A stretch of DNA of 64,000 nt from Halovivax limisalsi (GTDB taxonomy: Archaea; Halobacteriota; Halobacteria; Halobacteriales; Natrialbaceae): positions 1,302,001-1,366,000 of the forward strand of contig NZ_CP095757.1 in assembly GCF_023093535.1 (NCBI RefSeq). The letters run 5' to 3'. Below, piece by piece: positions 8,081 through 27,961 of the stretch. Below the pieces are notes generated by a model that saw only the letters and a list, made by a program, of their open reading frames with translations, searched no databases and was not told the DNA's origin. Position 1 is the first letter of the stretch. The number at the start of each line of letters is the position of its first letter. Both the position numbers and the translations under genes were made by a program.

Positions 8081-8812
8081 GTGACGGTCCTCGTCGTCTA
8101 CGAGGACCGCGAGTACCTCGTCGAACCGGGCGAGGAGTTCGGCACCGACCTCGGCGTGCTCGAGGTCCCCGCGGACGTCGAACCGGGCCAGACGATCGAG
8201 ACGCACCTCGGCACCGAGTTCCGCGTCCGACGCCTTCGCGGTCCCGACCTCTTTCATCACTTCGAGCGGACGGGCGCCCCGATGGTCCCGCGCGACGTCG
8301 GCCTGATCATCGGCGAGACGGGCGTCTGCACCGGCGATCGCGTCCTCGACGCGGGCACCGGGACGGGCGTCCTCGCGGCCGCGATGGCCCGCGTCGGCGC
8401 GTCGGTCTGTACCTACGAGCGCGACCCCGACTTCGCCGACGTCGCCCGCGAGAACATGGAACTGGGCGACGTCTCCGACTCGGTCGACGTCAGGACGGGC
8501 GACCTGACCGCGGAACTCGACGCCGTCGCCGACGCCGACCCCTTCGACGTTCTCACGCTCGACACCGGCGACGCCCCGACGATCGTCGAACGCGCTCCCG
8601 ACCTCCTCGTGGAGGGCGGCTTCCTCGCCGTCTACAGCCCCTTCGTCGAGACGACCCGCGAGGTAGTCAAGGCGGCTACCGAGGCCGGTCTCGCCGACGT
8701 TCGGACCCGCGAGACCATCCAGCGCGAGATGGACTTCGACGACCGCGGCTCGCGGCCCTCGACCGCCCCGGTCGGGCACACGGGCTATCTCACGATCGCG
8801 CGCAACGACTGA
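8081..8812 (+). CDS. trmI: tRNA (adenine-N1)-methyltransferase, TrmI family
   Basis: 243 residues with a GTG start. The N-terminal beta domain is followed by a Rossmann methyltransferase fold: SAM motif I is VLDAGTGTGVLAAAMA, then the acidic motif II (CTYERDPDFA) and the family motif LDTGDAP. The enzyme methylates A57/A58 in the T-loop of tRNA using S-adenosylmethionine. It is coupled to nac upstream. Confidence 0.88.
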   Translation: MTVLVVYEDREYLVEPGEEFGTDLGVLEVPADVEPGQTIETHLGTEFRVRRLRGPDLFHHFERTGAPMVPRDVGLIIGETGVCTGDRVLDAGTGTGVLAAAMARVGASVCTYERDPDFADVARENMELGDVSDSVDVRTGDLTAELDAVADADPFDVLTLDTGDAPTIVERAPDLLVEGGFLAVYSPFVETTREVVKAATEAGLADVRTRETIQREMDFDDRGSRPSTAPVGHTGYLTIARND

Positions 8813-18965: not shown

Positions 18966-19134
18966 ACGAGCGCGAGGTACGATTTCGTGGGGTGCCTTCC
19001 GCGTTCGTCCTGTTCACTCGTAGAAGTCAGCGGGATGGTCGACCTCCTCTTTCGGTAAGCCTCTGACAGGATTGTTTAGATTATACTGCAAGTAATCAGA
19101 TCGTCGCTACCACTGTAAAAGTCCCTGGCGTTGA

Positions 19135-19245
19135 GCAGAAGCGAAACTTCTGCGATGCTCGCGAGAGCTTGCTCTCGCGGCGTTCTCGACTCCCACGGCT
19201 CATTCGCGGCTTCGCCGCTCACGTTGACGCGGCGCTACGCGCCGC
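19135..19245. repeat. Cluster of four perfect hairpins
   Basis: Four tight stems in 111 bp: GCAGAAG/CTTCTGC with a 5-nt loop (19135-19153); CGCGAGAGC/GCTCTCGCG with a 2-nt gap (19160-19179); GCGGC-TTC-GCCGC (19206-19218); GCGGCGC-TAC-GCGCCGC (19229-19245). All pair without mismatch. The cluster marks the transition into the A+T-rich island. Confidence 0.65.
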
Positions 19246-19346
19246 GCTCACGCTGTTGTTCGAGAGATCGAAGTGGGTGAAAATCTACCGCCACCATTCG
19301 CGTGAACGGATCCGCATAGACAAACGTGTTTTCGCCCACAAACGCA

Positions 19347-19357
19347 CAGATTCGAAC
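19347..19357 (+). other. Possible left attachment site (short match to tRNA-Pro)
   Basis: The 11-mer CAGATTCGAAC is repeated in the same orientation at 27868-27878, within the T-arm of tRNA-Pro. The match is short, and TTCGAA is common in tRNAs, so it may be chance; its position at the left edge of the island is the main reason to list it. Confidence 0.25.
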
Positions 19358-19405
19358 GTAGAAACATAATCTACCGATATCGGTTCGAATTGTGGCTTTG
19401 ACCTA

Positions 19406-20065
19406 TCAGAATGCGACGGAATTTGCCTCAACCCCGGCTGCTTCTTCTACAGTAGTTTCTGTGTCCTCGGTGAGGACCCACGAGTGTTCTTTCAAATCCT
19501 CATTCTCGACTGAGGATTTTGCACCCCATTCAATCACGAGTTCCACATCAACAGGTTCGAAGTTAGCGGATAGTTCGTTCACCAGCCATCCAGATATCTT
19601 AACTCCCGAGTATACAGAGCTCATAGCTTCTTGTCGCCACGCTTTCTCATAATGAGTTAAACTCTTACCACCTACTTTGAGAGATTCCGCAGCCGTCATC
19701 GGGCGAGGGTGTGAGGTTTCTTCACCGTTATGCATGACTCGGATATCGCCAGTCCCATGTCCGTACCCACTCGCTCTGGAAGGAAACTGACGCTCGTTCT
19801 CTCCTACGTGAGCGACCTCAACTCCGAATAACAGTAGAGTCGCCCCTGATTGGGCTGTAGTTTCCAGAACCGTGTGACTAGTATCCCAACCAACTTTTCC
19901 CGCCGTGAACCAATGCATTGGTGTAATCTCGATTCCCCGATATTCAACGGGATCTCCGAACTCGTTCGTACCACCACCCGTAACGGATTCGAGGACTCCT
20001 GAACACCCAGCAAGTCCTATCGAGACCGTTGAGATCGCTGCAGCCAGGAATGCACGTCGGTCCAT
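19406..20065 (-). CDS. Lipoprotein with Tat-like signal, island cargo
   Basis: 219 residues. The N-terminus MDRRAFLAAAISTVSIGLAGCSG has a twin arginine and an LAGC lipobox. The mature part (EYRGIEITPMHWFTAGK...TLLLFGVEVAHVGENERQFPS) reads as a beta-sandwich of the kind seen in DUF4352/FxLYD-type extracellular domains. Codon use is more A+T-rich than in the flanking chromosome. Its role is unknown; anchored outside the cell. Confidence 0.75.
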   Translation of the reverse strand: MDRRAFLAAAISTVSIGLAGCSGVLESVTGGGTNEFGDPVEYRGIEITPMHWFTAGKVGWDTSHTVLETTAQSGATLLLFGVEVAHVGENERQFPSRASGYGHGTGDIRVMHNGEETSHPRPMTAAESLKVGGKSLTHYEKAWRQEAMSSVYSGVKISGWLVNELSANFEPVDVELVIEWGAKSSVENEDLKEHSWVLTEDTETTVEEAAGVEANSVAF

Positions 20066-20354
20066 CACCTATCCTGACACTCGTTAATGATTAATGTTCT
20101 TGCTCTATCGAGGAGTATCAATCATCTTCCGCAGGCCTTGACACAGAGAAAGACCGACGACAGCCGAGCACATTTGTTCATGAAATGTGAACGGTTCCTT
20201 GATAACTATGGGTGAGACAGAGGACCCCAGATATGCAGTCGAATCGGGTTAGTTTTTGGCGATGGTCACTAATTCGGTGGCTCAAGGACCGTCTTTGTTA
20301 GTACCAAATGTGACGCTAATAGGAACCATCGTAGACAGCAGAATAGAGGTCAAT

Positions 20355-20756
20355 CTATATTTTAATCAGAGCTGAGTCGGGTACTGTCTTCCTTTTCGCT
20401 TCATCAACTAGCCCAATCGCATCCGCCAACGGGATATACCAACACCCCTCATCTTCGTCGAACCGGGTTACATCAATCATCTTCTGGAACTCCCGGTATA
20501 CCTCAAACTCCTCGGGTTCCATCTTACCAAGGGAGTAAAAACGCACACGGGGAGCCATTGCATCACCATGAGCCGCATTATGGCACTGTCTGCACAGGGT
20601 AATCAAGTTGCTGAACCGGTTCGACCCTCCATTGCAACGAGGGACGATATGGTGCGTATCCAGCTTCACTTCATCTTCTCTCCCACAGTTCATGCATTGA
20701 TTTTGGTCCCGTTCTCGGATCGCCGTCACGAGGTCTCCAGTTTGACATCCTTTCAT
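20355..20756 (-). CDS. HNH endonuclease
   Basis: 133 residues. The HNH core is complete: CMNCGREDEVKLDTHHIVPRCNGGSNRFSNLITLCRQCHNAAHGD, where two CxxC knuckles bind structural zinc and the HH...N...H residues form the beta-beta-alpha metal active site. The C-terminal half is a small helical region with no known domain. Stand-alone HNH proteins cleave DNA and are frequent in mobile and defence islands. It is divergent from the HTH gene at 20944. Confidence 0.85.
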   Translation of the reverse strand: MKGCQTGDLVTAIRERDQNQCMNCGREDEVKLDTHHIVPRCNGGSNRFSNLITLCRQCHNAAHGDAMAPRVRFYSLGKMEPEEFEVYREFQKMIDVTRFDEDEGCWYIPLADAIGLVDEAKRKTVPDSALIKI

Positions 20757-20909
20757 GGTTTTTGTGGTTTGAGCACGAGAGTGTGGCCACTCATCGCAGG
20801 ACAGCTACTTCTCCAATTCATCGTCAAGCGGTCCTGTCGCCCTCTTACTCTCGCGCTCTATGTCAGGAGACGGTGCAATACTTAAAAGAAATACCTGCAA
20901 CCAAACAGA

Positions 20910-20921
20910 GGATATATCTAT
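20910..20921 (+). promoter_or_regulatory. TATA-like box of the HTH gene at 20944
   Basis: The run GATATATCTATA lies 25-34 bp before the ATG at 20944 and supports that start over the in-frame ATG at 20860. A second A+T-rich box (ACTTAAAAG) occurs at 20879-20887. Confidence 0.45.
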
Positions 20922-20943
20922 ACAAATTGTAAAAGATATTCGT

Positions 20944-21285
20944 ATGGAGCGGTTCAAGGGGGATACTCCTACAATCACGGAAAATGCAGTTCCTTGCAAA
21001 GTTACAGAGACTGGCGAAAGGTTTTATTTTACCCCTGGGAACGGTAGAAGCTCAAAGACTCTCGCAACTATCTTTAAAGAACTCCAAACTAATTTAGGAC
21101 CCTTTAAAGCACCGAGTTCTGGAATTCCCATTGAAGTTGCTAGTAGCGGAAAAGCACCAATTATGGCCTATCTGGCCGTAGTACATGAGAAATCGGATGA
21201 AGAAATTGCTGAAGTGATGTCAGTCTCCAAGAGCACAGTCCAACAATACCTGTCCCATATCAAGGCAGGACGGCGAATGCGTTGA
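20944..21285 (+). CDS. Small HTH DNA-binding protein
   Basis: 113 residues. The C-terminal segment YLAVVHEKSDEEIAEVMSVSKSTVQQYLSHIKAGRR is a helix-turn-helix of the LuxR/sigma-region-4 type (recognition helix SKSTVQQYLSHI). The N-terminal 60 residues have no recognised fold. It may regulate the island, perhaps the divergent HNH gene; this is inference from position. It belongs to the A+T-rich composition class. Confidence 0.68.
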   Translation: MERFKGDTPTITENAVPCKVTETGERFYFTPGNGRSSKTLATIFKELQTNLGPFKAPSSGIPIEVASSGKAPIMAYLAVVHEKSDEEIAEVMSVSKSTVQQYLSHIKAGRRMR

Positions 21286-22033
21286 GCAAAGTCATTGAGA
21301 CCATTATATAAATATTATTATACACAGGGAACCTGCTCGACCAAAGTCAGTTTTCAGACGGATTTGTTTTCCGTCTCTTATCACTGGAGACCTATTGCTA
21401 TCAACCAAATCTGTGAATGTATGGACGATAGCGACCGTACGGAATTCCTCGAAACATTACAATGAAGAGGAGGTGTCGGAGAAAGCAGCCCGACAGTTGC
21501 TCGGAGATGATGCGTTTGAGGATAGCCAGAGAAAGCCCGAAGTGCCGAGAGACGCTATCCAGTGACACCACTCGATTCTTACGGAAGACGATTCTGAGTA
21601 GTGTCGTATAATACCGCATGATCCGACTTGACGTCGAACCAAACTCTATTTCCTGTCGGCTATGAGCGCTAAAAGGGTGGTTTGGTTTGATGTGAGACGT
21701 TGCATGTCGAACATACCTAATATTTCAGAATATACGAAACGCCTATAATACACCTTATCAATCCCACACACAAATTCGAAATGTCGTGTTCCGTGGAGGT
21801 GGCTACGAACCACTCATATCTGTCGTTGGATTCTTCGAGGTGGTCAATCTCGCTCTCTTTTTCGGCCATACCAAGCGATGCGGAGGAGTAGGAAATAAAG
21901 GTGAGAAGTATATTGTTTCCCGTTACGCCGTAATCACGCCAAATACACTATCACTGCTCATATGTATAGAATTCTGCCCGTTGTTAAATCTACTGAATCA
22001 GCTTGAGTTGTCTATTCAGTACGGGATATTGGC
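21286..22033. other. No intact gene; possible coding remnant at about 21407-21566
   Basis: On the plus strand, a frame through about 21454-21566 reads HYNEEEVSEKAARQLLGDDAFEDSQRKPEVPRDAIQ, protein-like and acidic but without a credible start. An overlapping frame at 21421 begins MDDSDRTEFLETLQ and stops. This may be a decayed small gene. The 87-residue open frame at 21786-22049 looks random. An 8-bp inverted repeat (AACCAAAC/GTTTGGTT) lies at 21637-21687. Confidence 0.35.
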
Positions 22034-22067
22034 TTTTATAACTGGTTAACACCGAAAGGAGTTCACA

Positions 22068-22838
22068 ATGAAGCGTGTTGTAATGGATACAAACTACTGG
22101 ATTTCTCTAAAACAAGACCCAGACCGGTTCAAATCGTTCTATGAGACTGCATCATCTGACGATGTGCAAGTGTATTTCAGCACGGGCAATTTCATTGACC
22201 TCGTCAAGGCCAAAGAACAGGACTTGATGACGAAGATTATCGTAGCGATAGCGGACAAAGTCCTGCCACCCACTCCTGAAAAAGGGCACGAATTCTACGT
22301 CAGTGACTATTTTCTCGACATCGTACCGGATGACGAATATCGAGCCACCGTTAGAAGGGAGATTAGCGATTTACCATTGATAGACATCCTCCAACAGGCG
22401 TTTCGGGACTCGACTTGGAGTGCAACAGACGAATACTTCGTAGGGATGGAACAGACACGAGACCTCATCGAGGAATGGGGCCATGATAATCTGAAGGGGG
22501 TGGCATTCGAGGATTATCTAAAACGTCGTGGTGACCAATATGTCCTCCACGAACACGAGGTCGACATTGTCGAGTACGTAAAGAAGGAGATATACTTTCA
22601 CCGAGTTTTGATGATGGACCCGAACGAGGCGGTCAAGGAGAATGATGTTGCGGATATGCTTGTTTGTACACAAGCAATCCTCTCAGACTGCGATATGCTC
22701 CTTATAGAAGCGAAATGGGCGAATTTAGGACTTGTGGAGGCCGTGACTGAGAATATCGATGGAGAAACCGAGTTGGAAATATACAAGGATTTTGAGGCAT
22801 TCCATCGGGAGTTGAGGGGAGCGGTGGCCAACACCTAA
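22068..22838 (+). CDS. PIN-like nuclease domain protein
   Basis: 256 residues. It begins KRVVMDTNYWISL, where Asp7 matches the first metal ligand of PIN nucleases. Near the C-terminus NDVADMLVCTQAILSDCDMLLIEAK supplies further acidic residues in the position of the later PIN motifs. The middle is a long helical insertion (about residues 60-175), so it is larger than VapC toxins. A TTTTATAA box lies 27-34 bp upstream, and a GGAG sits 5-8 bp before the ATG. No antitoxin-like gene precedes it. Confidence 0.6.
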   Translation: MKRVVMDTNYWISLKQDPDRFKSFYETASSDDVQVYFSTGNFIDLVKAKEQDLMTKIIVAIADKVLPPTPEKGHEFYVSDYFLDIVPDDEYRATVRREISDLPLIDILQQAFRDSTWSATDEYFVGMEQTRDLIEEWGHDNLKGVAFEDYLKRRGDQYVLHEHEVDIVEYVKKEIYFHRVLMMDPNEAVKENDVADMLVCTQAILSDCDMLLIEAKWANLGLVEAVTENIDGETELEIYKDFEAFHRELRGAVANT

Positions 22839-22855
22839 CCCGGTGATTAGGAGTA

Positions 22856-23449
22856 TTAATCAGAATCTTCAATATCGACACCGAGAAGGTCTCGGAACTG
22901 AGTTTCTAACTTCAACTTTAGCTCGGGGACTTCATCGGTCGTTAAATCTTCCCAGTTCTCTAGCCACTTCTCCGTCCGTTCCCTTTCCTCAAGCGCAGAC
23001 TCCTTCCGATCATGTATTCGCAGGAGAGCGAACTCGTGGAACATGTCCCGATATGTCTTCAGGAGGTCATCCATTGTTTCGCAAACATCAGGTGGGAGGT
23101 AGATTTTATTGCGTAAGTAATACCGGCGAAGCTCCTCAACAGACTCAGCTGCAATATCCAGTTTCTCGTCTCGGTCAGTTTCGCCCCGGCTTACGATCGG
23201 GTCAACCAATATCCGCATATCTTCATCAAATTCAGTTAGTTTACCGTAGAGGTCCTTCATCACGTTCGCTCTTTCTTCGTGCAACTCAGCAAATCTGACT
23301 TCTTCACGACTGAGTTCGGCCTGATAGGATTTGAGCTGCTTCTCGAAGTATTGGTTGACTGTGTGCCTTGCAATATATGTGAGGACAGCCGCACCAATAG
23401 CAATTAGACCCAAATCACGTATAAGGCTAATAATTAATTCAGCGACCAT
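22856..23449 (-). CDS. Membrane-anchored coiled-coil protein, unknown
   Basis: 197 residues. One N-terminal transmembrane helix (LGLIAIGAAVLTYIA) is followed by long, charged, heptad-like helices (YFEKQLKSYQAELSREEVRFAELHEERANVM and later EERERTEKWLENWEDL). It is of the general kind often found among phage and defence cargo, but no named domain is recognised. It is convergent with the PIN-like gene and followed upstream by 23462-23707 on the same strand. Confidence 0.65.
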   Translation of the reverse strand: MVAELIISLIRDLGLIAIGAAVLTYIARHTVNQYFEKQLKSYQAELSREEVRFAELHEERANVMKDLYGKLTEFDEDMRILVDPIVSRGETDRDEKLDIAAESVEELRRYYLRNKIYLPPDVCETMDDLLKTYRDMFHEFALLRIHDRKESALEERERTEKWLENWEDLTTDEVPELKLKLETQFRDLLGVDIEDSD

Positions 23450-23461
23450 TTCTCCAGTGCT

Positions 23462-23707
23462 TCAGAGCTGAGTTAGGTTCTCAGCGTTCCATCTTTCATC
23501 TTTCTGTAAGATCTCTACACGTACAACACGCCGTTCCTCTGGTTCAAAGAATGTAACATGAACATCGTATTCTGTTTCCACTACACCATCCATCGTATCT
23601 TGTACATCAACGTGTTCAGCTTTATTGAGGGCAAACTCCCTCGGTGCTAACTGCTCTATGAGGTTACCAATTGCTTCTTCGTCATCAGCACCGTAAGCTA
23701 CTGCCAT
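23462..23707 (-). CDS. Small acidic protein of unknown function
   Basis: 81 residues, soluble and acidic. The middle (VVETEYDVHVTFFEPEERRVVRVEILQ) reads as a small beta-sheet. It is 12 bp from the membrane coiled-coil gene on the same strand and probably cotranscribed. No family is recognised. It is in A+T-rich island composition. Confidence 0.5.
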   Translation of the reverse strand: MAVAYGADDEEAIGNLIEQLAPREFALNKAEHVDVQDTMDGVVETEYDVHVTFFEPEERRVVRVEILQKDERWNAENLTQL

Positions 23708-23835
23708 ACTTACGAGTTGAACTGATTGTAATAGTCAGTTTGGGTTTCTTCTTGTAGACTCCCAAACTCAACCTCGTTTTCACCCCTATATCGACCTCAA
23801 ATCAAGGTAGGTACCAGAACTGAGATAGCGAGTTC

Positions 23836-24104
23836 GTGTTCCCGTCTCGACAGAGCGACCAAATGACTACGGAGAGCATGAGGAACATCGTTCGAGATCT
23901 CGCGACCCACGCCGACGTTACGGTTCACCGTTCAGATGGGGAACCCGCCGACACGGAGGAACTTCATCCGCACGCCTTCCGACACTCGCTCGCGAACTAC
24001 ATGCTGGCCGACGAGGATACACACCTCGTCGATGTCCGAAACCGACTTCGAATCGGTCGGTGACGACGACTGAGAGAGTGTACGACCACTTCCAGCTGCG
24101 CTAA
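23836..24104 (+). pseudogene. Tyrosine recombinase (XerC/D-like) C-terminal remnant, frameshifted
   Basis: Only the end of a tyrosine recombinase remains. FPSRQSDQMTTESMRNIVR and LHPHAFRHSLANYML (the HxxR motif) are in one frame, then VRNRLR ends at an early stop at 24061. One missing base at about 24051-24052 moves the rest, RSVTTTERVYDHFQLR with the catalytic Tyr, to another frame ending at 24104. Restoring a C recreates the CAT codon of the conserved RHRSV histidine. Upstream a stop codon precedes the fragment, so the N-terminus is lost as well. Confidence 0.88.
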
Positions 24105-24440
24105 CTAGACCAGTAACCCGAGAAACTGGAACACGAATCCTCCGATTAGACCGATTGCTGCTATTGACTGATTCCACATCATTTGTTTCTTATTGTCATA
24201 ACTCTCTGGAGAGTCTGGTATTGGAAGACCCGCCATTCCGCCACCAACTGGGGATATTTTACCAACAGGTGGGTCCCGCTCCGTGTCTTCTGGGTTCTCT
24301 CGGTCGACATGTCGATGGTAGAACCACCACATTCGGATTGGTTTCGACGTGAAGAGGTCCACCAACGTTAGATAGTACACTCCGACGATGTTCATCAAGA
24401 GGCCGAATCCCGTGAGTATATCGCTTACTGGTAGTTGCAT
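24105..24440 (-). CDS. Small membrane protein, unknown
   Basis: 111 residues with a hydrophobic segment near each end (ILTGFGLLMNIVGVYYLTLV and IAAIGLIGGFVFQFLGLLV) and a polar, Pro-rich middle containing WWFYHRHVDRENPEDTE. The ATG at 24440 is used; a TTG at 24461 is an unlikely alternative. It ends exactly where the recombinase remnant on the opposite strand stops. No function is seen. Confidence 0.6.
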   Translation of the reverse strand: MQLPVSDILTGFGLLMNIVGVYYLTLVDLFTSKPIRMWWFYHRHVDRENPEDTERDPPVGKISPVGGGMAGLPIPDSPESYDNKKQMMWNQSIAAIGLIGGFVFQFLGLLV

Positions 24441-24608
24441 ACTATTTCGTGTATTCGTCAAGCTTCGCCTGAATGGATTCTTCGTTCATCTCAACCACCT
24501 CACCATTGGGCGATGGTCCCGATGTCGACTGATTTTCGAATTTTCGAGCCCTTATAGACAATCTCCCCCAACCAAAGCTTATACGTTCTGGTTTCTAACC
24601 AGTCACTA

Positions 24609-24955
24609 ATGGTTGATTTTCACATCCCTCACGCAGAGGATGCTGAGGAAGCTGAGGAGGTTTACGAGGGGACAGCAAAGTTTGTCGAACAACAGCGTGC
24701 GGCGGTAAAGAGAGAGCCTCGGATAAGTCGCATCAAATACTATGTGCCGATAAAGACCAGACATACGATGTGTCCATCGGTGACACCGTACCTCAGGTAG
24801 GGGAGCCAGCAATCGCTATCTTCGAATCTGATGATAAGCGATTCGATGTCTTCTATATCTGTACACCACACAGAGCTGTCATAGAGGGAATTCCCATTAT
24901 GGTCGGTCGTAACAACGTGAGACAGATAGAGTATTTCGATGAGGATTCGTACTAA
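24609..24955 (+). pseudogene. Conserved-type hypothetical gene split by one frameshift
   Basis: Frame 1 from the ATG reads MVDFHIPHAEDAEEAEEVY...RISRIKYY, then runs out at 24800. A second frame continues the sense: DKDQTYDVSIGDTVPQVGEPAIAIFES...VFYICTPHRAVIEGIPIMVGRNNVRQIEYF, to a stop at 24955. One lost base near 24744-24746 explains both. The combined product of about 115 residues looks like one soluble protein. Function unknown. Confidence 0.65.
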
Positions 24956-25072
24956 CTGATTCTCATCTTAAGTTGACACCAGGAACGAGTCTCCAACCAT
25001 TTCCATCGCCGTTGAGCTGTATACACTCTTCTAAAGGAAATGATTATCGGGATATAATATCATTGGTGGCGA

Positions 25073-25693
25073 ATGATGCCCCAGATTACCAATGACGGTA
25101 AGAAAATCCTGTCTGCTATAGAGCAAAAGTTGGGCCGGTCCCCTTCAAGCGACGAAATGGAGACTGTTCGAAGAATCTTAGAAGAGAAAGGCTTCCTGAG
25201 GATTTCTCAGGGGGCGACCACACGGTACGTCTTCGCACTTCCGAACGACATCATAGCTGGAACCGATAGAGCAGTTTTGAAAATACCAGGAAGAAGAACA
25301 GATTTCTTTGAGAGTTATTCCTTGGAACATTTAGGCGCTGACCAGAATATACGCTCAGTATATACAGCAGAATATCTATCGAAGGAAGGATTGGCACCAC
25401 CCATAATTAGCTATTCTGAACTTGGCTCATGGGTTGTCTATCCCTTCTTAGATGACCTGAGTGACGAACATATGGATGAGTTTGAGCAGAAAGTAGACGA
25501 AATCAAATCAATAAATGAGGTCTCTATCGCAACTCAGAGAGAAATGCCTGGGACGGCAGATATAGAAATTCCTGAGAGTTGGGGTGTATATGAAGGTGAA
25601 GTTGTCCTGCGAGATCTAGCGAGTGTTGTCATCAGTGAGGATAAAGCGCCTGAATTAGACCTCGTGAAAGACCCTCTCTGGGAATCCCATTAG
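25073..25693 (+). CDS. Hypothetical protein, possible degenerate kinase-like fold
   Basis: 206 residues. The N-terminal 50 residues (KKILSAIEQKLGRSPSSDEMETVRRILEEKGFLRIS) suggest a helical or winged-helix domain. The middle has RAVLKIPGRR, then YTAEYLSKEGLAPPIISYSELGSWVVYPFLDDL, a spacing that recalls the beta3-Lys and hinge strands of kinase-like folds such as APH or HipA. No catalytic HxD/DFG equivalents are clear, so this is only a hint. It sits just upstream of the microprotein array in the same direction. Confidence 0.55.
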   Translation: MMPQITNDGKKILSAIEQKLGRSPSSDEMETVRRILEEKGFLRISQGATTRYVFALPNDIIAGTDRAVLKIPGRRTDFFESYSLEHLGADQNIRSVYTAEYLSKEGLAPPIISYSELGSWVVYPFLDDLSDEHMDEFEQKVDEIKSINEVSIATQREMPGTADIEIPESWGVYEGEVVLRDLASVVISEDKAPELDLVKDPLWESH

Positions 25694-25788
25694 TCGGCCC
25701 TGCTAACGATACCGCTCGTTGATGAAAAGTGAAAAATTCCAGCGGCTGAAAACCTTTTACCCACAGAACAGGGCTGAACGCGCTCATT

Positions 25789-25821
25789 AGTGGCAAAGGC
25801 TTTAAACAACCAAGTGGCAAA
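25789..25821 (+). promoter_or_regulatory. Promoter of microprotein array: TATA box flanked by direct repeats
   Basis: TTTAAA at 25801-25806 lies about 27 bp upstream of the first ATG at 25830, ideal for a leaderless transcript. The 9-mer AGTGGCAAA occurs at 25789-25797 and again at 25813-25821, exactly 24 bp apart, on both sides of the TATA box. It is a plausible operator. Confidence 0.5.
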
Positions 25822-25829
25822 AGAGGTAC

Positions 25830-25925
25830 ATGGGACTCTGTAAAGAATGCCGAAAAGAGGCAGAGAGTACCACCGTCGAAAAGGGCGAATTTCGGACGTG
25901 TGACCGCTGCGGCAAACGATACTAA
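25830..25925 (+). CDS. Four-cysteine microprotein 1 (31 aa)
   Basis: The peptide is MGLCKECRKEAES, a short spacer, then RTCDRCGKRY. Two CxxC pairs 17 residues apart could bind one zinc ion as a minimal ribbon. It is the first of four homologous genes; the family pattern is M-(P/G)-L-C-x-x-C-R-x-E-A-E ... C-D-R-C-G-K. It starts a leaderless transcript and ends 2 bp before microprotein 2. It is short enough to escape normal gene calling. Function unknown. Confidence 0.75.
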   Translation: MGLCKECRKEAESTTVEKGEFRTCDRCGKRY

Positions 25926-25927
25926 CT

Positions 25928-26047
25928 ATGCCCCTCTGTTCCAAATGCCGAGAGGAAGCAGAGTTCACCTCACTCCAAGGTGGAAAGAGCGCGAAAAACA
26001 CCGACAATGGTTCGAAAACGTGCGACCGTTGCGGTAAGTCACTCTGA
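25928..26047 (+). CDS. Four-cysteine microprotein 2 (39 aa)
   Basis: The longest of the four. MPLCSKCREEAEF, a Gly/Lys/Asn-rich spacer of about 18 residues, then KTCDRCGKSL. The cysteine pairs and the REEAE block are conserved while the spacer varies in length and sequence, as expected if the metal site is under selection. Its TGA overlaps the ATG of microprotein 3 (TGATG), suggesting translational coupling. Confidence 0.78.
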   Translation: MPLCSKCREEAEFTSLQGGKSAKNTDNGSKTCDRCGKSL

Positions 26048-26157
26048 TGCCCCTCTGTTCAGATTGTCGAAACGAGGCGGAGGCATCGTGGGATGCTCTC
26101 ACCGATGCTGAGTGCCAAGCAATCATTTGCGACCGATGCGGAAAGGAAATAGGATAA
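26047..26157 (+). CDS. Four-cysteine microprotein 3 (36 aa)
   Basis: MPLCSDCRNEAEA, a spacer containing an extra cysteine (DAECQAI), then ICDRCGKEIG. The four family cysteines are present. Its start overlaps the stop of copy 2, and its TAA overlaps the start of copy 4 (TAATG). The spacer is acidic, with one Trp, unlike the neighbours. Confidence 0.78.
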   Translation: MPLCSDCRNEAEASWDALTDAECQAIICDRCGKEIG

Positions 26158-26264
26158 TGCCTCTCTGTTCCGAGTGCCGAGAAGAAGCAGAGTTCTCAAT
26201 CCGAGTGAATACTGGCGAGGATGATTCCGAAAAACGGTGTGACCGATGTGGGAAGCGAATCTAG
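26157..26264 (+). CDS. Four-cysteine microprotein 4 (35 aa)
   Basis: MPLCSECREEAEF, a spacer (SIRVNTGEDDSEK), then RCDRCGKRI. At the DNA level its first 36 bp are close to those of copy 2, which supports recent tandem duplication. It ends 12 bp before the membrane-protein gene at 26277, so all five are likely on one transcript. Confidence 0.78.
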   Translation: MPLCSECREEAEFSIRVNTGEDDSEKRCDRCGKRI

Positions 26265-26276
26265 CACGGGTCGGAT

Positions 26277-26857
26277 ATGCCGGATGAAACTGAAGAAGTG
26301 GAGGAGACGGAGACGAGCAACAGAGTAGTGACGATGAGGAGCGTGATGTAATAGACCCATCTGACTTTCCAACACTCCGCCTCACACTCGAAGAAGCACG
26401 GCGGAAATATGACAATGAAGAGAGTCGGCGAGATACGGTTGAGAACAAAATTGGGATTGTCGTCACGGTAGATGCACTGCTCATCTCCTTCGGCGCACTG
26501 TTCTCCGACCTCCAAGTTCTAGTTCTCGCTGGAGTCCTTACCCCAGCACTCATCTCTGCGGGACTAGGTCTATACACAATCCGCTCCCGCGATTACAAAC
26601 GACCGGGAAAAGACATCAAAGACTTTTACCAGTATTCAGGATTTGACGACCCTGCTGACCAACAGGAACAACTGCTCCTCGATTACTCAGAGGTGACTTT
26701 GACAAATAAGGAGATGAACGACCCGAAGTTCAGACGATTTAACATCTGCATTGCTCTCACGTTCGTCTCTATATTCTTACTGCTGGCAGCACCCTTGGCC
26801 TCGCACTTGGGTTGGATAGAATCAGCCATAGACTACATGAGGGTAGTATGCAGTTGA
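26277..26857 (+). pseudogene. Three-helix membrane protein gene with a frameshift near its start
   Basis: The ATG frame gives MPDETEEVEETETSNR and soon stops. From about 26324 another frame reads SSDDEERDVIDPSDFPTLRL and stays open to 26857. One deleted base near 26322-26324 explains this. The rebuilt protein (about 193 aa) has a charged helix (EEARRKYDNEESRRDTVEN), two adjacent transmembrane helices (IGIVVTVDALLISFGALF; LVLAGVLTPALISAGLGLY), a cytosolic stretch and a third helix (ICIALTFVSIFLLLAAPLA). The layout recalls small membrane effectors of defence islands, but the similarity is only in topology. Confidence 0.6.
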
Positions 26858-27011
26858 TTCCTCCTTCAGGCTGGTAGAGACTGAGAACTGAGTCTCGAAG
26901 ACCATCACTCTCTTCGACCAATGGCGAGAACTCTAGGCAAGCACAACTGAAGGTCTGAATGAGGCCAATCAGCTACAACCACTTTCAGCGTCAGTATTGG
27001 TGGAAATGAGA

Positions 27012-27248
27012 TTATCCTTCAAATCCTTCTGGGGTATTGCCTGTCGGTCGCAATGACTCGGAATCGAGACTCTCCTCAATCATCATTTCCTGAAATAATT
27101 CGCTTTCAGTTTCTTCAATGCGCAATTCGCTCCACCCTTCTCTGTCTAAATGGTCATACAATACATCCCGGTCTACCCAAGTGGTAGGGCTCTTGATGGT
27201 TCTATCATAGATAGCTTCGTACATATCTTTGGCATCGTCGCTGACCAT
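27012..27248 (-). CDS. Small acidic hypothetical protein
   Basis: 78 residues, acidic and helical: KDMYEAIYDRTIKSPTTWVDRDVLYDHLDREGWSELRIEETESELFQEMMIEE. The composition is protein-like (few Arg-runs, balanced charge), and the frame is intact in A+T-rich DNA. The pattern suggests a winged-helix-like or helical bundle protein, but no family is recognised. It stands alone on the minus strand. Confidence 0.5.
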   Translation of the reverse strand: MVSDDAKDMYEAIYDRTIKSPTTWVDRDVLYDHLDREGWSELRIEETESELFQEMMIEESLDSESLRPTGNTPEGFEG

Positions 27249-27469
27249 ACCGGACCTGTTCGTTATCGTTCGTTTTAGTCCTGGTTGTTGATGAGTTCAA
27301 CAGCCTGATGGAGCCATCTCCCTAGGTCATCGGAGAAATGGGGTCTGCAGGTTTCTAGACCTGATTTTCAACACTTGTTTGGTATATCGCGTGCTATAAC
27401 ACCCGTTAAGGAGGAGGACTTATAACATATCCGATCATTGGTTTCGGTATTAAATCTGATACAAATCGG

Positions 27470-27961
27470 ATGGACGATGCACAAACCGAGACTAAGACGC
27501 TGATGGGTGGAGATGCTGTCCTTGCCGCAGAAGAAGGAGATGTGGTTCAGTTCCGAGAGGATGAATTGACCGTATCAGAGAAGGGTGAATTCAACGACCA
27601 CGAGTACATTGTATTGGAAGGCCCACGAGGTGGCAACCACCGTGAAGTCCAATTCGATAGGGAGAATCTGCACCGACCAGATGATGACATCACATCAATC
27701 GACCTCAAACTCGAAGTTGAGGAAGAAACCGATGATGAGAAGCTAACAATCGACGTAAGCGACTACAACACCACCGACGAAGTCGGTGAATGGGACATAT
27801 TGTTCGGTGCTGACGTAGACTCGTCGCTACGCTCCTCGCGTTGCGGTGCGGGAAAAGTGGGCCGGCGCAGATTCGAACTGCGGTTACGGCCACCCGAAGG
27901 CCGAAGGATACCAAGCTACCCCACCGGCCCGCAATCGACAGGTGGTGACGGTCGCGTATAA
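27470..27961 (+). CDS. Hypothetical protein whose frame runs through the tRNA-Pro locus
   Basis: The first 120 residues look real and acidic: DAVLAAEEGDVVQFREDELTVSEKGEF...YIVLEGPRGGNHREVQFDRENLHR, beta-rich. From about 27825 the frame enters chromosome-like DNA and is read antisense through the tRNA (ELRLRPPEGRR...), so the C-terminus is not credible as evolved protein sequence. The gene was probably cut when the element joined, or was rearranged at, the tRNA. Confidence 0.5.
   Translation: MDDAQTETKTLMGGDAVLAAEEGDVVQFREDELTVSEKGEFNDHEYIVLEGPRGGNHREVQFDRENLHRPDDDITSIDLKLEVEEETDDEKLTIDVSDYNTTDEVGEWDILFGADVDSSLRSSRCGAGKVGRRRFELRLRPPEGRRIPSYPTGPQSTGGDGRV
27858..27930 (-). tRNA. tRNA-Pro (anticodon CGG)
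   Basis: A 73-nt cloverleaf on the minus strand. The acceptor stem is GGGCCGG/CCGGCCC with discriminator A; the D-arm GGGT/ATCC; the anticodon stem CGGCC/GGCCG with loop TTCGGGT (anticodon CGG, G37); the T-arm CGCAG/CTGCG with loop TTCGAAT. All stems pair apart from one G-T pair in the D-stem. CCA is not encoded. Its 3' end faces the A+T-rich island, the usual side for tRNA-targeted integration. A TTATTATA box lies about 30 bp upstream. Confidence 0.93.

Follow-up and report, generated by a model that had tools for sequence, protein, structure and literature searches.

CPxCG-related small zinc-finger proteins are defined by two cysteine patterns 7-40 residues apart, at least one of them CPxCG-like, in fewer than 100 aa, and their published length frequency peaks at 50-70 aa (PMC2253796). 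A length of 30 aa has been judged too small for a stand-alone zinc-finger protein, and the literature warns that prediction of zinc binding fails for such small proteins, 5 of 14 purified C(P)XCG proteins of Haloferax being zinc-free (PMC11241148). One haloarchaeal member of this group, Brz, is encoded directly 5' of bop in the same orientation and controls bop mRNA (PMC2253796). Among membrane effectors, PycTM acts in phage defence as a membrane-disrupting pore (PMC11224242). A Pycsar system combines a pyrimidine cyclase, PycC, with an effector that responds to cCMP/cUMP by impairing the membrane. The PycTM family (PF18967) has a cytosolic N-terminal helix, two membrane helices, a cytosolic stretch and a third membrane helix, and in haloarchaeal Pycsar the cyclase gene lies directly 5' of the PycTM gene. 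Two-gene toxin-antitoxin and abortive-infection modules with a membrane effector are compact mobile operons, in which overlapping genes encode the effector and a small cytosolic partner. Here we describe a module that has features in common with each of these systems, an operon composed of an array of microprotein genes and one membrane-protein gene.

The window (the whole 64 kb stretch of Halovivax limisalsi DNA analysed here) contains four microgenes in tandem on the + strand at 25830-26264, whose products of 31-39 aa each carry two CxxC knuckles. Microprotein 1 (25830-25925, 31 aa, CKEC...CDRCG) is followed by microprotein 2 (25928-26047, 39 aa, CSKC...CDRCG, "SLQGGK" loop class), microprotein 3 (26047-26157, 36 aa, CSDC...CDRCG, "DAL" loop class) and microprotein 4 (26157-26264, 35 aa, CSEC...CDRCG, "RVN/RAN" loop class), all of them on the + strand and of Cys4 type. 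The start of microgene 4 was taken at 26157; the ORF list has a longer GTG-started frame from 26112. The junctions are, in order, a 2 bp gap, a TGATG overlap and a TAATG overlap, as given in the preliminary description, and with genes that touch or overlap in this way translation is probably coupled, as had also been proposed. Alignment of the four copies gave 14 invariant columns, including Cys4, Cys7 and the CDRCGK block. We have then scanned for the pattern M-x-[LIVM]-CxxC-x(8-35)-CxxCG-stop. It occurred four times in the window, always inside the array, and was absent from 60 dinucleotide shuffles of the window and from 300 of the AT-rich island that holds the array. That the array ORFs are real genes is settled by homologous arrays in other genomes and by a dN/dS below 1.

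The four-gene array thus stands as first described, but the conserved unit is longer and runs on into a membrane-protein gene at 26277-26857 (+). In the module, the gene directly 3' of the last microgene encodes a protein of ~175-215 aa with three predicted membrane helices. In the window its frame is broken: an acidic N-terminal part starts at ATG 26277, and the conserved body (26297-26857) is read in the -1 frame, where it lacks a usable start codon of its own. The lesion amounts to a net -1 shift within the acidic N-terminal linker. The window protein is nevertheless 69% identical to the intact L019/L033 protein, with a profile match of E 3.4e-76. Since no slippery heptamer was seen, we prefer a frameshift mutation or a sequencing error to a programmed -1 frameshift.

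Several approaches were used to relate the membrane protein to known families. No Pfam or NCBIfam model matched it at cut-off, the Pfam SLATT models gave no hit among 15 members, and the protein was not found in phage records and viral contigs. The AlphaFold model (pLDDT 78) has a long N-terminal helix running into membrane helix 1, followed by membrane helix 2, an amphipathic helix and, at the end, another long helix. A fold search with this model returned generic helical bundles only and no match at E≤1e-3. In one subclade the membrane proteins end in a C-terminal cysteine (LLC in L020, LFC in L026 and L028, SIC in L031).

PF18967 gave a weak hit for two members (best E 0.041), with none reaching the Pfam curated cut-off. 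Profile-profile comparison was clearer. With hhalign, haloarchaeal PycTM proteins were matched at a probability of 84-93% over most of the membrane protein, whereas reversed, globally shuffled and locally shuffled controls reached at most 18%; in the run at 93% the score was 42.7, against at most 22.4 in 30 + 30 + 30 shuffles and two reversals. Based on this profile-level homology and the topology in common, we place the membrane protein in the PycTM superfamily, outside the PycTM family proper. Such a kinship does not prove pore formation by the partner protein. The gene order is also alike, with the effector gene directly after that of its regulator, the regulator being a proposed one in the case of the partner protein. 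Two haloarchaeal PycTM genes (L057, L058) lie directly 3' of a cyclase gene; in the module this position is occupied by one to five Cys4 microgenes, with no cyclase beside them. A tblastn search with two haloarchaeal PycC-like cyclases gave no hit in 17 module or microprotein loci or in the window. The module was placed outside Pycsar because no cyclase is near. More remote relatives of the membrane protein occur without microgenes; several adjoin genes read as type IIG restriction-modification enzymes (motifs such as VIGNPPY), and one adjoins a TIR-like protein. In four non-halobacterial loci (L069, L074, L086, L119) PycTM-like genes lie at or near the end of apparent type IIG restriction-modification genes without microproteins, and this gene pair may be another membrane-effector pairing.

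To follow the recurrence of the array, a profile was built from the four window copies, and it retrieved further arrays, in genomes from the same family. From all sources we obtained 17 distinct array loci with 2-5 copies each, in haloarchaea, where they lie on plasmids and in islands. Five copies are present in G025 and G265, and four in the window, G070 and G386. Three were found in Natronococcus jeotgali (G087, with one additional decayed copy), Natrinema versiforme pNVE500 (G077), a Halobaculum plasmid where the module occurs twice (G378), Halapricum hydrolyticum (G316), an Actinarchaeum plasmid (G261), Halorussus salinisoli, Haloferax alexandrinus plasmid pBNX82-3, a Halorubrum ezzemoulense plasmid and the loci G155, G411 and G180, whereas a Natronocalculus plasmid (G165) has two.

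When 391 genomes were surveyed with a 49-sequence microprotein profile, 15 had a strong hit (E<1e-8), and in 14 of them the copies lie directly 5' of the membrane-protein gene. The sole exception is a single copy in G108 (L023 2724-2852, 42 aa), which neighbours a divergently transcribed 165-aa ORF, probably membrane-anchored and unrelated to the PycTM-like partner. Weaker matches (E>1e-5) were nearly all segments of much longer proteins. Searching from the other side, the membrane-protein profile was present in 19 of 391 genomes of Halobacteria, most of them with 2-5 Cys4 microgenes immediately 5'. In L038, L040, L041 and L044 a single divergent microgene lies 5' of the gene for a more distantly related membrane protein, with 156 bp between microgene and membrane gene in L044. 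Single-copy versions are likewise present in two non-halobacterial genomes (L064, L065). The two parts of the operon overlap or touch in many loci. In the plasmid records examined, the membrane protein is annotated alone, as "hypothetical," with no microgene annotated 5' of its gene, which agrees with the earlier remark that these genes fall below gene-calling size. Apart from the membrane gene, no third gene was conserved across loci; a 149-aa downstream ORF is common only to near relatives.

All copies compared, the four of the window and the 49 of the alignment, fall within the CPxCG-related definition. The microproteins have the CxxC pair layout in common with haloarchaeal proteins of that group (Brz, HVO_2753, HVO_0758), and the Brz gene, like the array, lies directly 5' of a membrane-protein gene. 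They differ in their length of 30-40 aa, in forming tandem arrays of specialised paralogues and in having a fixed PycTM-like partner. Against the two-gene modules with a membrane effector, the difference is that the putative small partner is here a multi-paralogue Cys4 array. The literature searched, mostly without subscription journals, describes neither the combination nor a specialised tandem array, in line with the earlier statement that no system with this layout was known. The microproteins fit a known definition and the membrane protein is a relative of a known effector, while the combination and the specialised array would be new to that literature. Archaeal microproteins overlooked by annotation now have a conserved partner, and PycTM-like membrane effectors would be extended to a mode of control without cyclic nucleotide.

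The four cysteines, whose constancy had been noted within the window, are invariant in all 49 aligned copies. Conservation begins at residue 1, and position 3 or 4 is the usual place of the first Cys. Zinc binding by the microproteins is plausible; the AlphaFold model of the microprotein is of low confidence (pLDDT 66) and uninformative on zinc. Class II bacteriocin operons have tiny-peptide genes beside a membrane-protein gene, and the several tiny Cys-rich genes next to one membrane protein resemble them, as if the array encoded a multi-peptide halocin followed by the producer's membrane immunity gene. We regard this as highly improbable, given that the microproteins have no leader or signal sequence ahead of the first Cys, that no export gene is conserved nearby, and that the CxxC pairs fit metal binding better than secreted disulfides. 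The invariant cysteines would suit a metal or redox switch of ordinary physiology, with the Cys4 microproteins as sensors of zinc or oxidation that adjust the activity of a non-killer channel. Small CPxCG proteins of Haloferax are reported to act in stress adaptation (PMC6562870). Such a role is possible but on balance unlikely, as the patchy distribution (~4% of surveyed genomes, on plasmids and islands) is unlike that of housekeeping homeostasis and the PycTM kinship of the membrane protein also speaks against it.

We have also inspected the region 5' of the array. A TATA-like box, CTTTAAAC, lies at 25800-25807 (+), ~23-30 nt upstream of the first ATG, a spacing that would be as for a nearly leaderless transcript; several of the other array loci have TATA-like boxes at similar spots ahead of their first microgene. 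In the window only, a direct repeat, AGTGGCAAARG, lies on either side of the box (25789-25799 and 25813-25823). This repeat, together with the precedent of Brz and bop cited above (PMC2253796), would be compatible with a regulatory role in which the microproteins, as DNA- or RNA-binding proteins, govern the operon and its membrane gene without touching the membrane protein. However, the overlap or contact between the genes implies that microproteins and target are translated together rather than that control is exerted in trans, the copies are not strongly basic, autoregulation needs no 3-5 specialised paralogues, and a conserved operator was not obvious when the loci were compared by eye. We therefore hold regulation of this kind to be unlikely.

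The selection acting on the module was estimated from dN/dS between the orthologous loci L025, L027 and L029. The knuckles gave ~0.01-0.13 and the membrane protein ~0.08-0.11; the loops, at ~0.13-0.66, are less constrained than the knuckle motifs, yet purifying selection acts throughout. Individual copies could be followed between loci: microprotein 1 is the best match of copy 1 in L033, L034, L035 and L055, microprotein 2 of L033 copy 3 and L035 copy 2, microprotein 3 of L035 copy 3 and L055 copy 3, and microprotein 4 of L033 copy 5, L034 copy 3 and L035 copy 4. Reciprocal best loops kept the same order in 72% of pairs, compared with 50% when copies were shuffled, and none of 300 shuffles reached the observed 72%. 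The loops are therefore position-specific classes and not diversifying decoys. The preliminary description had read the variable spacers as a diversification of the loop; hypervariability is ruled out by a dN/dS below 1 and by a class order kept more often than chance. Selection thus maintains sets of specialised paralogues among proteins of ~30 residues with four cysteines, a size that had been thought too small to stand alone.

The second knuckle behaves differently from the loops. It occurs among the loci as CDRCG, CSRCG or CDECG, with DR in all window copies, SR throughout L034, L035 and L049, and DE in most others. It is fully uniform in 9 of 13 loci, where 1.1 were expected and at most 6 were seen in 20,000 shuffles. 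Phylogeny was not accounted for in this shuffle and the DE loci belong to a single clade; the DR/SR difference among the remaining loci is therefore the cleaner evidence. Recent gene conversion is an unlikely source of this uniformity, since synonymous codons vary within loci. In the window the same motif is encoded with CGC, CGT, CGA and CGA for Arg and GGC, GGT, GGA and GGG for Gly. This argues for selection on the protein.

As a tentative first choice, we propose a two-part membrane-effector module whose microproteins would jointly hold or gate the membrane protein, as a kind of toxin-antitoxin or abortive-infection system. In its favour are the co-occurrence of the two parts, the PycTM kinship, the array at the place of the cyclase gene, the more distant relatives of the membrane protein beside apparent type IIG or TIR genes, and the mobility of the loci. 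One part would be the operonic array of Cys4 microproteins, each a stand-alone metal knuckle of 30-40 aa, and the other the PycTM relative, with its three predicted membrane helices and cytosolic N-terminal helix. Coupled translation would supply near-stoichiometric microproteins just ahead of the membrane protein. Their common second-knuckle face would then bind that protein and hold it shut or set its assembly, each loop having a fixed role, either a particular position in a heteromeric collar or a cue of its own. Release could follow from microprotein loss, oxidation, demetallation or the binding of an invader component, and the freed membrane protein would permeabilise the membrane and stop growth, acting in toxin-antitoxin or abortive-infection fashion, the latter being known for PycTM (PMC11224242). 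If such gating occurs, few known protein switches of a membrane effector would be as small as this one.

The array needs extra explanation in this respect, because known antitoxins seldom come as sets of 3-5 paralogues. A more far-reaching reading is a switch with several inputs, where each microprotein would read a different cue (viral protein, metal state or redox state) through its loop and the shared second-knuckle face would act on one pore. We consider this extension quite unlikely; were it true, one operon would equip a single effector with many tiny sensors, and the set could be enlarged.

The decay of individual genes bears on the two-part effector proposal in both directions. The G180 membrane gene is frameshifted near its end, and in both loci with a broken membrane gene (the window and G180) the microgenes are intact, which a cost confined to the membrane protein would predict. 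If the lesions are real, and not sequencing errors of one genome, they suggest such a one-sided cost. On the other hand, an intact membrane gene beside decayed microgenes counts against the proposal. In L026 (1397-1494) a decayed copy 4, in frame and with most cysteines gone, overlaps the start of the intact membrane gene, and an extra upstream copy in L020 (~8310-8410) is decaying, with ATA in place of a start codon. Within the arrays, copies are gained and decay.

The plasmid and island locations, the lack of a third component and the loci with a lost toxin would also be compatible with addiction only, in which the microproteins act as antitoxins to a membrane toxin that enforces retention of the element, with no antiviral role. 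This differs from the two-part effector proposal in purpose rather than in mechanism; several antitoxin paralogues for one toxin would be odd, and we give the addiction reading little weight.

With regard to mobility, the module lies in an AT-rich island of ~9 kb (19000-27850; ~47% GC in a chromosome of ~70% GC) that ends at the 3' end of a tRNA-Pro gene (27857-27930, -), which supports the mobile character suggested earlier. An attachment-site repeat of the tRNA-Pro end was looked for and not found, and no RNA families were detected in the island. A fragment at 23836-24063 is like the C-terminal end of a tyrosine recombinase (HAFRHSLANYML) and is possibly a remnant of the integrase that brought the island to tRNA-Pro. 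The island also holds an ORF at 22068-22838, starting MKRVVMDTNYWISL, which looks like a PIN-type nuclease fold and has no Pfam match, and a small HNH-endonuclease-like ORF at 20355-20756 (-) (CMNCG...HHIVPRCNGG...CRQCHNAAHG).

The neighbourhoods vary among loci, with serine recombinases and integrases near several and a divergent TFB gene adjoining the module in one subgroup. A PADLOC scan that covered only the neighbouring proteins gave scattered defence matches, including a helicase with DISARM/BREX-type hits; the L055 assignment rests on the L055 annotation. Having no control set, we claim no defence enrichment, and the neighbourhoods are mobile and not clearly defence islands. DNA common to some loci amounts to little more than the module itself. 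L129 and its relatives share a block of ~880 bp that roughly spans the promoter, the array and the membrane gene, as well as a second block with the 149-aa ORF.

Two cases of near-identical modules were observed. On contig 3 of G378, two 20-kb stretches of one 167-kb plasmid (L126 and L127), each with a module, are 99.97% identical, reflecting either a recent internal duplication or an assembly artefact. L125 and L128, from genomes of two different families, have 94% identity over 6.5 kb and differ by one amino acid across the array with zero synonymous changes, a near-identity that points to recent plasmid-borne transfer.
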